From: Halobaculum marinum
GTDB taxonomy: Archaea; Halobacteriota; Halobacteria; Halobacteriales; Haloferacaceae
DNA length: 64,000 nucleotides
Direction of reading: 5' to 3'
NCBI RefSeq assembly: GCF_029338555.1
Contig: NZ_CP119989.1
Location: 186,001 to 250,000 of the forward strand
In this document: piece by piece, positions 37,897 through 41,107 of the stretch
Position numbering within the stretch: the first letter of the stretch is position 1
Layout of the letters: each line of letters starts with the position of its first letter
The notes under the pieces: model-generated
The model's database searches: none
Told to the model about the DNA's origin: nothing
The model's input: only the letters and a program-made list of their open reading frames with translations
Program-made: the position numbers and the translations under genes

Positions 37897-38051
37897 GCGC
37901 GGTGATGCCGGCGCGGCGCGCAAAACGCTTGCCCGTCGCTCGGCGGGGCAGCCGAGCGTTCGTCGACGGCGACGGGTGCTCGTCGATCCAGCCACACCAC
38001 CCGGCCTCCGTCGGGCGAAGACGGTATTACACCCGACGCCGACCGTCCGGT

Positions 38052-38294
38052 ATGCACATCGAGTTCGACCGTGACACCTGCGTCGGCATGTACCAGTGCG
38101 TCGCCGAGTGGGACGCCTTCGAGAAGGACATGGACGCCGGCAAGGCGACGCTCGTCGGCGGGGAGGAGGTCGAGGAGGACACCTTCTCGCTGGAGGTGCC
38201 CGAGGGTGAGGAGTTGGACGCGAAGTTCGCCGCCCGGACCTGCCCGGTCGACGCGATCCGACTGTACGACGACGACGGCGAACAGCTCATCTGA
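38052..38294 (+). CDS. small single-cluster ferredoxin
   Basis: 80-residue ferredoxin, MHIEFDRDTCVGMYQCVAEW ... FAARTCPVDAIRLYDDDGE. Only three Cys are seen (C-x5-C and CP), which fits a 3Fe-4S or a 4Fe-4S cluster with a non-Cys fourth ligand, as in some archaeal and P450-linked ferredoxins. The acidic surface (EEVEEDTFSLEVPEGEELD) is usual for halophiles. GGTATTACACC at about -30 fits a leaderless start. It ends 30 bases from the convergent opsin-like gene. Confidence 0.88.
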   Translation: MHIEFDRDTCVGMYQCVAEWDAFEKDMDAGKATLVGGEEVEEDTFSLEVPEGEELDAKFAARTCPVDAIRLYDDDGEQLI

Positions 38295-38324: not shown

Positions 38325-39062
38325 TCACTCCGCGGTCCGCGCCGGCGCGAGATCCGAGTCGTCCAGCCGACCCACGCCGCGGACGAGGACGACGCCGAAC
38401 CCGACCGTCGCCGCGAGGTCGAGGGCGGCGAACGCTGCGGTCTCGACCGACAGCGGGACGATTCCGTAGCCGCTCTGGGTCCCCAGGAGCCACACGACCG
38501 GGTACAGCGCCCACACCGCCACCACGAGGGTGCGCAGGCGACCGAACAACTCCGCGCGGGCGTCGGACTGCTCGTCTGCTCGTTGCGAGAGCGCCCCGAG
38601 CAGGACGTACAGCAGGGCGACCAGCGCGCCCGTGGAGATGGCCCACCACGAGAGGCGGGCGACCTGTCCCTCGCGCGCCAGCGCGCCGACGAGCCCCGCC
38701 ACGAACACGAACGCGTCGAGGCCGAGCAGCGTCGCGAGGGCGTTGCGGTCGGCGCCGGCGAGCAGCGCCATCGCCGTCAGGATCAGCGGTGTGACGACTA
38801 GCCAGCCGACGTAGCGGGCCCAGTAGACGTCGAGCGTCCCGACGGTCTGGACCGGCACCTCGATCAGGCCGAACCCGGTGGCCATCGAGAAGTACGTCGC
38901 CGCCGCGGTTGCCGTGCCGAAGATCGTGACGACGTAGTACTGCTGTCGCGCGGAGTCGCTCACGGACCAGCCCCGTGCGACGAGATACAGCGTCCCGAGC
39001 GCCATCCCGACGGTCGCTAGCCACAGGCTCCCCGCTTCGAGCCCCGGTGTTGGTGTCGCCAT
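38325..39062 (-). CDS. opsin-like seven-helix protein without the retinal-binding lysine
   Basis: 245-residue microbial-rhodopsin homologue. Helix C reads VYWARYVGWLVVTPLILTAM (bacteriorhodopsin-like YWARYxDW) and helix F WALYPVVWLLGTQSGYGIVP. Arg83, Trp87, Asp215 and the helix-F Trp/Tyr/Pro set match the retinal pocket. But the Schiff-base Lys is replaced by Thr219 in LDLAATVGFGVVLVRG (codon ACG, 38406-38408), the Asp85 equivalent is Gly86 and the Asp96 equivalent is Ala97. It cannot form the usual chromophore. It is divergent from crtY and brp. A GCATATAAG box at 39091-39098 gives a leaderless start. It may bind retinal non-covalently, or interact with carotenoid enzymes as bacterio-opsin does. 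Confidence 0.9.
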   Translation of the reverse strand: MATPTPGLEAGSLWLATVGMALGTLYLVARGWSVSDSARQQYYVVTIFGTATAAATYFSMATGFGLIEVPVQTVGTLDVYWARYVGWLVVTPLILTAMALLAGADRNALATLLGLDAFVFVAGLVGALAREGQVARLSWWAISTGALVALLYVLLGALSQRADEQSDARAELFGRLRTLVVAVWALYPVVWLLGTQSGYGIVPLSVETAAFAALDLAATVGFGVVLVRGVGRLDDSDLAPARTAE

Positions 39063-39090
39063 CCCGGTCGGCCGTGAGCCGGGGGCGGGC

Positions 39091-39098
39091 TTATATGC
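39091..39098 (-). promoter_or_regulatory. TATA box of the opsin-like gene
   Basis: CATATAAG on the minus strand lies about 30 bases before the ATG at 39062, indicating leaderless transcription and an intact promoter for the lysine-free opsin gene. Confidence 0.6.
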
Positions 39099-39208
39099 TC
39101 GCCTGACCCGGGATGTCGCGCCGATCGGACCTGGCCCCGTCCCCGACGCGAACGCGTTCGGCCGCGCGAGGCCGTCGTCGTCGAGCGCGTCCGTCCAGTC
39201 CCCCCACG

Positions 39209-39237: not shown

Positions 39238-39294
39238 ATGGCTCCGGATCTCCGCCGTCGGTCGTCGGCCCACCTCGACGGGGGAGCGCGGTGA
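39238..39294 (+). CDS. possible 18-codon leader ORF before crtY
   Basis: MAPDLRRRSSAHLDGGAR, then TGA at 39292-39294. The ATG sits at the predicted transcript start, and the TGA overlaps the GTG of crtY (GTGA), which is the classic overlap for translational coupling. It may be a leader peptide; it could also be accidental. Confidence 0.3.
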   Translation: MAPDLRRRSSAHLDGGAR

Positions 39295-40070
39295 CGCTCA
39301 CCTACCTCGGCTTCCACGTGCTGTTCGTCCTGCCGGTCGTGGCGCTGCTATTGTGGCGCCGTCCGGCGCTCCCGCGGCGTCGCCTGCGCGTCGCTCGCGC
39401 GGGTCTCGTGTTGATGGGGACGGTCGCGTTCGCGTACACGACGCCGTGGGACAACGCCCTCATCGAGCGCGGCGTGTGGTTCTACGGCGACGGGCGAGTC
39501 GCCGCGCGCGTGTGGCTCGCGCCCGTCGGCGAGTACCTGTTCTTCGTTCTCCAGACCGTCATCGTCGGCCTGTGGCTCTACCGGGTCGACTTCGACCCCA
39601 CGCCCACCGCCGGCGACACGGCCCGCCTCCCACGAGCGGTCGGCGCCGCCGCGCTCCTCGTGCTCGGTGCCGCAGGCGGGTGGTTCGTCGTCGCCGGCCC
39701 CGAACGGCTCTTCTACCTCGGCGCGATCCTCGCGTGGGCCTGCCCGGTGATAGCGCTCCAGTGGGCCGTCGGCGGGGCGTTCCTGCTCCGACGGCCGCGC
39801 CCGTGGCTCCTCGGCATCGCCGTCCCGTCGCTGTACCTGTGGGCGGTCGACCGCGTCGCCATCGGCGTGGGCGTGTGGACCATCGCCGACGCCACCTCGA
39901 CGGGCGTGACGCTGTTCGGCCTCCCGGTCGAGGAGGCCGTCTTCTTCGTCGTGACGTGTACGCTCGTGGTGTACGGGCTGATCCTGCTCGAGTGGGTCGT
40001 CGTGCGGTTCACGGGGACGAGCGAGGATGGAACGGTCGACGATCGCACGGACATCGCGGCGGACGACTGA
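39291..40070 (+). CDS. crtY: lycopene beta-cyclase, fused heterodimer type (CrtYc-CrtYd)
   Basis: 259-residue polytopic membrane enzyme that closes the beta-ionone rings of lycopene to give beta-carotene. It has two tandem lycopene-cyclase domains of about 100 residues. The first has TTPWDNALIERGVWFYG and PVGEYLFFVLQT, and the second GVWTIADATSTGVTLFGLPV with EEAVFFVVTCTLVVYG. These match the archaeal fused cyclase. GTG at 39291; an upstream short ORF overlaps it. Its stop overlaps the brp ATG (TGATG), so the two genes make one transcript, giving retinal from lycopene. Confidence 0.9.
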   Translation: MTLTYLGFHVLFVLPVVALLLWRRPALPRRRLRVARAGLVLMGTVAFAYTTPWDNALIERGVWFYGDGRVAARVWLAPVGEYLFFVLQTVIVGLWLYRVDFDPTPTAGDTARLPRAVGAAALLVLGAAGGWFVVAGPERLFYLGAILAWACPVIALQWAVGGAFLLRRPRPWLLGIAVPSLYLWAVDRVAIGVGVWTIADATSTGVTLFGLPVEEAVFFVVTCTLVVYGLILLEWVVVRFTGTSEDGTVDDRTDIAADD

Positions 40071-41107
40071 TGGCCGTCGCCGAGTCGCTCCCAGGGTCGC
40101 TGCGCGCGGCACTCGACCGGTGGGGGATCCGCGCGTCGTGGGTCGCGCTCGCGGTCACACTCCCGTTCGGCCTGCTCGCACCGACGCTGTCGCCGGCGCT
40201 TCGGTACGCGCCGTTCCTCGCGTCGGTACTGGTGTTCGGCCTCCCGCACGGCGCCGTCGACCACCTCGTGCCCGACCGCCTCGCCGGTACGGGACTGGTC
40301 CAGTCGGTCGCCGTCGTCGTCGCCGTCTACGCCGTCCTCGGCGTCGGCTACGGACTGTGGTGGGCCCTCGCGCCGGTGTCGGCGTTCGTGGCGTTCATCG
40401 CGATCACCCTCTTCCACTGGGGGCAAGGCGACGTGTACGCCCTGCTCGTGCTCGCGGGCGCGGAGCACCTCCCCTCGCGCGTCGAGCGGGGACTCGCGCT
40501 GGTCGTCCGCGGCGGCCTCCCGATGCTCGTCCCCCTCGTCGGCCACCCCACTGAGTACCGCCGCGTCGCCGGCGCGCTCGTCGGCCTGTTCGCCGGCGGG
40601 GTCGGCGCGCTCGACCCGGTGTTCACGCCGGCGGCACGGGTCGCGGTCGCGGTCGGCTTCGGCGCGCTCACACTCCTCGCGCTTGTGGTCGGGGGGGACC
40701 GCGTCCGCCGCGACGACGCCGCACGGCGGCCGTGGCTCGTCGACGCCGGCGAGACGCTCGGCCTGTGGGCGTACTTCCTGCTGGTGCCGCCGGTCGTCGG
40801 GATCGGGCTGTACTTCTGTTTCTGGCACGCGACGCGCCACATCGCGCGACTCGAACTGCTCGACCCGGGGGCGCGTGAGACGCTCGCCGCGGGCGACCTC
40901 CCGGGGACGCTCCGGCGGTTCGCCCGCGACGCCGCGCCCGCGACCGCCGGGGGCCTCCTCGTCGTCGCGGGCGTGTGGGCGCTCGCGCCGCGGCCCACCG
41001 CGGGGCCGGAGGGGCTGCTCGCCGTGTACCTCGTCGCCATCGCGGTCATGACCCTGCCGCACGTCGCCGTCGTGACGTGGATGGATCTGCGACAGGGTGT
41101 GTGGTGA
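40070..41107 (+). CDS. brp: beta-carotene 15,15'-dioxygenase, Brp/Blh family
   Basis: 345-residue membrane protein of the Brp/Blh family, which splits beta-carotene into two retinals. The iron-binding His pattern is seen in VFGLPHGAVDHLVPDRLAG, ALTLFHWGQGDVYALLV-type (here AITLFHWGQGDVYALL), CFWHATRHIARLELLDP and TLPHVAVVTWMDL, the four His-bearing segments of the family. Its ATG overlaps the crtY stop by one base. Retinal is thus made here, next to an opsin homologue that lacks Lys. Conventional rhodopsin genes may lie elsewhere in the genome; this window cannot tell. Confidence 0.93.
   Translation: MAVAESLPGSLRAALDRWGIRASWVALAVTLPFGLLAPTLSPALRYAPFLASVLVFGLPHGAVDHLVPDRLAGTGLVQSVAVVVAVYAVLGVGYGLWWALAPVSAFVAFIAITLFHWGQGDVYALLVLAGAEHLPSRVERGLALVVRGGLPMLVPLVGHPTEYRRVAGALVGLFAGGVGALDPVFTPAARVAVAVGFGALTLLALVVGGDRVRRDDAARRPWLVDAGETLGLWAYFLLVPPVVGIGLYFCFWHATRHIARLELLDPGARETLAAGDLPGTLRRFARDAAPATAGGLLVVAGVWALAPRPTAGPEGLLAVYLVAIAVMTLPHVAVVTWMDLRQGVW

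Follow-up and report, generated by a model that had tools for sequence, protein, structure and literature searches.

Type-1 opsins that lack the lysine of the retinal Schiff base are already known, and those described from haloarchaea belong to one ancient clade that lies near the sensory opsins and has diverged strongly. Becker 2016 (PMC4915679) reported 48 such lysine-less opsins (ORPs) in a clade nearest the sensory opsins, with arginine or a hydrophobic residue at position 216 and a lost retinal pocket (W178 and Y174 of NpSRII). An MCP/HAMP transducer is encoded next door in group A and in about half of group B, and the two ORPs that were tested took up no retinal. A retinal-free opsin can also be active in its own right. 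According to the secondary accounts in PMC6212597 and PMC9410494, which report Dummer 2011 and Peck 2017, it is bacterioopsin lacking its retinal, and not free retinal, that inhibits lycopene elongase. The usual explanation in these accounts is direct binding, released once retinal converts bacterioopsin to bacteriorhodopsin (BR).

The window analysed here, a 64,000-nucleotide stretch of Halobaculum marinum DNA, encodes a lysine-less opsin in which the loss is recent and lies in the proton pump itself, with sister species keeping canonical orthologues at the same locus.

An opsin with threonine at the retinal lysine position

The opsin gene (38325..39062, minus strand) is an intact open reading frame of 245 amino acids with an ATG start, and its product matches the Pfam family Bac_rhodopsin (PF01036) with 176 bits in a profile search. 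As the initial annotation had proposed, the alignment places Thr219 (ACG; 38406..38408, minus) at BR Lys216, the retinal lysine, where all orthologues have AAG. It places Gly86 (GGC; 38805..38807, minus) at Asp85, the counterion and proton acceptor (GAC in the orthologues), and Ala97 (GCG; 38772..38774, minus) at Asp96, the cytoplasmic proton donor (GAC or GAT in the orthologues); the step from GAC to GCG takes two base changes. That list of losses holds as stated but is incomplete. Codon alignment puts Val90 (38793..38795, minus) at BR Thr89, leaving the protein without the D-T-D motif. Gln196 (38475..38477, minus) replaces Glu194 of the proton-release group, and Val119-Phe120 (38703..38708, minus) aligns with Met118-Ile119 at the ring end of the retinal pocket. 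In BR numbering, the further changes are L93I, M118V, I119F and T121A. Positions T89, L93 and M118 are each invariant among 120 canonical BR-type opsins (defined by K216, D85 and D96), and all three are changed here. HsBR, HsHR and NpSRII served as numbering references, and the key BR residues agree with the known numbering.

The whole protein contains no lysine, so a lysine Schiff base is impossible at any site; a covalent adduct at another lysine, which the initial annotation had named as a way to overturn its reading, is thereby ruled out. It is the only opsin without the helix-G lysine in an initial set of about 150 different haloarchaeal opsins, which were selected for their similarity to it. 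Threonine at this place does not mark a clade, as had been envisaged, and occurs in only one of the examined genomes. The odd residue itself is all that would point to a sequencing or assembly artefact. The protein differs from the orthologue consensus at 92 amino-acid positions, spread over the gene without a frameshift, neighbouring genes and codon pattern are normal, and the genome is 98.9% complete in 3 contigs, so that an artefact can be practically discounted.

Much of the rest of the pocket is retained. The protein keeps R82, W86, T90, P91, D115, W138, S141 and T142, as well as W182, Y185, P186, W189, E204, D212 and A215 (BR numbering), which agrees with the earlier claim that pocket residues (R82, W86, P91, W182, Y185, P186 and D212) are preserved. 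An AlphaFold2 model has a mean pLDDT of 91.6 and superposes on the structures of deltarhodopsin, cruxrhodopsin-3, bacteriorhodopsin and archaerhodopsin with TM scores of 0.85-0.89, and the fold is predicted to be intact. Judged from these residues, we infer that the opsin can neither hold retinal via a lysine nor move protons by the canonical route. An unusual pocket was also seen in a lysine-bearing opsin of another genome (G003:C1:466528-467154), which has His at BR position 93 and Gln at 115.

The retained aromatic residues (W86, W138, W182, Y185, P186 and W189), together with S141, T142 and A215, would suit a protein that binds retinal, a retinoid or a carotenoid non-covalently and serves the Brp/CrtY pathway as a sensor, store or carrier. 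A BR that lacks K216 still works with aminated retinylidene compounds, though less efficiently (Becker 2016, PMC4915679). However, the ring end of the pocket is altered (M118V, I119F, T121A), D85 and T89 are gone, and the genes adjoining the opsin (rpiA, ferredoxin, crtY, brp and hef) contain no transducer or output domain. We consider such a binder unlikely.

Orthology of the locus and the remaining retinal genes

The gene order PGM, GIY-YIG, AIRC, rpiA, fdx, opsin, crtY, brp, hef is common to the window and three other Halobaculum genomes, G393 (Halobaculum litoreum DT92), G234 and G305. On one side of the opsin lies a small ferredoxin gene (Fer4_15; 38046..38294, plus), recognised by profile match, a conserved neighbour that serves as a synteny anchor. 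On the other side lie the divergent gene for a CarR-domain type lycopene cyclase, CrtY (39291..40070, plus), and the gene for the Brp/Blh beta-carotene 15,15'-dioxygenase of retinal synthesis (40067..41107, plus; exact start uncertain). The opsins of the three relatives at this shared locus keep K216, D85, T89, D96 and E194, and the frameshifted orthologues that would have pointed to decay were looked for and not found, as all three are intact. A quick tree placed the window opsin weakly among the Halobaculum BRs. A careful tree resolved the placement, grouping it with the three BRs at a support of 99/86 and setting it beside the G393 protein at 73/66. Because of the shared gene block and the tree support, the window opsin is not an ancient paralogue but the positional orthologue of a proton pump of the working type.

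Membership in the ORP clade was considered and rejected. In all eleven ORPs with R216, which were found in other families of the order, Gly replaces W189 and Leu replaces P186, and the AU test rejects grouping them with the window opsin in one clade (p = 0.018, lnL difference 35.7).

The rest of the retinal machinery in the window genome is still in use. The genome encodes one Brp, a halorhodopsin and a sensory rhodopsin, both of the latter with the lysine, and no other BR. Elsewhere it carries an intact cluster of lycopene elongase, CruF and phytoene-synthase genes; the elongase is a putative one, a 289-amino-acid prenyltransferase-like reading frame beside cruF and a phytoene-synthase-like reading frame, named by context and resemblance. 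The normal halorhodopsin leaves room for a silent partner or scaffold role, in which the opsin would form mixed oligomers with halorhodopsin, or bind bacterioruberin in BR-like trimers, and so have a structural or modulating function. Bacterioruberin-binding trimers are known in archaerhodopsin-2 (2z55, a match in the structure search), and a regulatory-multimer role has been speculated for the bacterial Rh-noK (PMC10308929). Yet Rh-noK sits in tandem with an active partner, which the window opsin does not, and the genome has no other BR; a partner role appears very unlikely.

Of the 11 Halobaculum genomes, nine carry opsin together with brp. The other two (G269 and G394) have no opsin and no brp and keep the bacterioruberin gene cruF, and they represent a loss of the whole retinal system within the genus. 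Five Halobaculum species (G392, G395, G210, G263 and G158) have another BR, with only 46-49% identity to the window protein. In G392 it is accompanied by its own distant crtY and brp, and therefore two BR lineages circulate in Halobaculum. Multiple copies also occur: in one genome (G145), a pair of BR-type opsin genes with identical match scores is separated by about 1.2 kb (C1:1533836-1536422), and a third BR-type copy lies elsewhere.

Constraint and relaxation in the opsin gene

The window opsin has diverged faster than the genes around it. The three Halobaculum orthologues are 87-90% identical to one another, and the window protein is 60-63% identical to them, whereas its genome matches G393 at 82.7% for RpiA, 82.8% for CrtY, 85.0% for Brp, 95.0% for ferredoxin, 88.8% for halorhodopsin and 88.9% for the elongase. 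Rates were estimated with an MG94-type codon model in a custom Python fit; dS is large, and the model assumes steady composition while base composition has shifted in the window lineage. With these caveats, the window branch has a dN/dS of 0.38 in the six-taxon fit and 0.40 in the four-taxon fit (approximate profile interval 0.24-0.60), against a background of 0.095 and 0.063, respectively. The window branch differs from the background (2dlnL 27.7 with six taxa, 38.8 with four) and also from 1 (14.5 and 10.7), so its dN/dS is four to six times that of the orthologues and still below 1. No rise in dN/dS is seen in halorhodopsin (0.10), Brp (0.08), CrtY (0.10), RpiA (0.15) or the lycopene elongase (0.08), the last of which shows no acceleration to match that of the opsin. 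On the evidence of these codon-model estimates, selection on the window opsin is relaxed yet present. Among canonical proteins, another fast-evolving opsin was noted in a further genome (G060:C3:20300-21400), a lysine-bearing BR-type protein with 26 residues unseen in other canonical BRs and six changes at nearly invariant sites.

The distribution of the changes follows the conservation of the family. With conservation measured in the 120 canonical BRs, the fraction of sites changed is 0.21 where conservation is at least 98% and climbs to 0.62 among the most variable ones. Conserved sites without a photochemical role have changed less often than chance would predict (P = 0.006 with the cut-off at 98% and 0.00015 at 90%). 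Changes are not enriched at photochemical compared with other conserved sites (8/29 versus 4/27, P 0.33). Mean transmembrane hydropathy, computed leaving out residues 85, 96 and 216, is 1.264 versus 1.244 +/- 0.078 in the canonical set, and only three charged residues have been gained at transmembrane positions. The gene body has no indel relative to the three orthologues and no stop or truncation, in keeping with the earlier description of an intact reading frame.

The main rival to continued function is slow gene decay, in which the pump became dispensable, selection was relaxed and the gene, though still intact, is on its way to becoming a unitary pseudogene, with its constraint a leftover from before the loss or merely the avoidance of a toxic misfolded membrane protein. 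The change is known from a single lineage and genome, dN/dS is raised, and GC1 of the opsin has moved from 0.58 to 0.72, a drift of the amino acids toward GC-rich codons. Loss is also common nearby, as the two Halobaculum genomes without any opsin or brp illustrate. In a related genus of the same family, a BR-type opsin carries an in-frame TGA (G216:C16:483351-484052), and therefore outright bacteriorhodopsin decay does occur nearby. Missing stop codons speak only weakly against decay in such a GC-rich gene. In simulations with 15-25 constrained changes the probability of finding no stop is 0.08-0.33, and the lack of stops was set aside as too weak a proof of function. GC3 (0.918, like that of the relatives) was likewise dropped as evidence of translation; by our own arithmetic, the drift seen at codon positions 1 and 2 points to an equilibrium GC of about 0.85, at which that test is powerless.

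A long neutral phase, however, does not reproduce the protein. Simulated sequences took 15-25 canonical (constrained) changes and then drifted neutrally until they were as diverged as the window protein. They match its hydropathy with P <= 0.002, its sparing of conserved sites with P <= 0.001 and its low number of new transmembrane charges with P <= 0.005. A purely neutral phase that supplies the approximately 70 excess changes is rejected on all three measures, although the simulations roughly allow for a brief neutral phase at the end, with about 20 amino-acid changes at most (P 0.03-0.05). Since the canonical-then-neutral simulations fail, most of the excess changes appear to have been accepted under membrane-protein and fold constraint. 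This is statistical evidence that the opsin was kept as a folded seven-helix membrane protein during most of its accelerated evolution, and simple decay is statistically disfavoured at the sequence level. With the long neutral phase rejected, dN/dS significantly below 1 and no indel in the gene body, we regard slow decay as possible rather than probable.

The upstream region presents a mixed picture. A TATA-like element, ATATAAG (39090..39096, minus), is retained 27 nt upstream of the ATG. Farther upstream is the dyad CGAACGCGTTCG (39149..39160, minus), a perfect 12-bp palindrome with only one other occurrence in the window (at 777). It is altered in the window lineage, the corresponding sequence being CGAATATGTTCG in G393 and CAAATATGTTCG in G234; a dyad of the form CGAA-N4-TTCG upstream of the opsin is also present in G393. 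The AATATGTTCG element shared by G393 and G234 reads AACGCGTTCG in the window, and the opsin-proximal upstream GC content is 0.75 compared with 0.44-0.65 in the orthologues. A bacterial promoter scan of the upstream DNA returned nothing, its model being bacterial and not applicable to archaea. The lost AT-rich character and the altered element suggest weaker or changed expression of the opsin. The promoter, which had been called intact, thus retains its TATA-like box and has lost its upstream AT-richness. The accompanying argument for selection rather than decay fares similarly. A dN/dS of 0.38, the conservation gradient, the unchanged hydropathy and the failure of neutral simulations uphold it, but a rate four to six times that of the orthologues and an eroded upstream region, which also favour the decay reading, leave partial relaxation or ongoing decay possible.

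Proposed role and comparison with known systems

Taken together, these patterns make it moderately probable that the window opsin is non-photochemical and still under selection, and its job probably needs no light. The initial annotation had suggested a regulator of carotenoid enzymes, and the reported inhibition of lycopene elongase by apo-bacterioopsin in the accounts cited above (PMC6212597, PMC9410494) makes such a role plausible by analogy. We tentatively propose a blinded bacteriorhodopsin kept as a folded apo-opsin, whose likeliest job would be restraint of the lycopene elongase. In this scheme, the bacteriorhodopsin of the Halobaculum retinal locus would have lost its photochemistry recently. 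A retinal-free apo-opsin would restrain LyeJ, the elongase that opens the bacterioruberin pathway, so that lycopene stays available to lycopene cyclase and Brp. A lysine-less opsin would stay retinal-free for good, locked in the inhibiting state, and the brake on LyeJ would therefore no longer be covalently released by retinal. Such a locked brake could direct lycopene towards beta-carotene and retinal, to serve the halorhodopsin and sensory rhodopsin that remain. We put the full elongase mechanism at somewhat over a third.

The gene content of the genome is compatible with the elongase role, as elongase and CruF are intact and the retinal synthesis genes are normal. The adjacency of crtY and brp is no evidence for it, because this arrangement was inherited from a normal bacteriorhodopsin locus. 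The stronger form of the proposal, a pump reduced to its second function, as an always retinal-free brake dedicated to the elongase or a non-covalent retinoid-sensing version of it, is doubtful. If true, it would make the gene a natural separation-of-function mutant for the pump and regulator roles of a haloarchaeal opsin. More generally, a functional window opsin would offer a clean natural test of what bacterioopsin does without light, and could show whether apo-opsin control of lycopene elongase alone suffices for retention by selection.

Among its closest relatives, the Halobaculum BRs of G393, G234 and G305 share locus, neighbours, length and clade (99/86) with the window opsin at 60-63% identity, and differ in keeping D85, T89, D96, E194 and K216 and in having dN/dS below 0.1. 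The closest solved structure, deltarhodopsin (PDB 4fbz; 56% identity in the structural alignment, TM 0.89), is canonical and lysine-bearing, unlike the window opsin. Compared with apo-bacterioopsin, as it is summarised in PMC6212597 and PMC9410494, the likeness lies in a light-independent activity of retinal-free haloarchaeal bacterioopsin and in the presence of an elongase in the window genome as well. There, however, a working pump has inhibition as its second activity, and retinal lifts it, whereas the window opsin would have no other task and no lysine through which the inhibition could be lifted.

Other lysine-less opsins resemble it in part. Rh-noK (Yamauchi 2019, as cited in PMC10308929) is likewise an ion-pump-type rhodopsin without the lysine; in that summary it is xanthorhodopsin-related and betaproteobacterial and lies in tandem with a functional pump. 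Its function is reportedly restored by a lysine (PMC10308929), while the window opsin is also without D85, T89 and D96. In freshwater FArhodopsins the lysine of a pump-family paralogue is replaced, with threonine among the replacements, like the Thr of the window protein; these belong to the proteorhodopsin family, have an adjoining flotillin gene and are paralogues rather than the orthologous pump (PMC10308929). The ORPs and the window opsin are alike in having the haloarchaeal type-1 opsin fold without the Schiff-base lysine, but the window opsin is BR-derived, has Thr at 216, keeps the pocket aromatics and has no MCP neighbour. The window opsin is a new, independent and recent lysine loss in bacteriorhodopsin proper, with the aromatic pocket kept.
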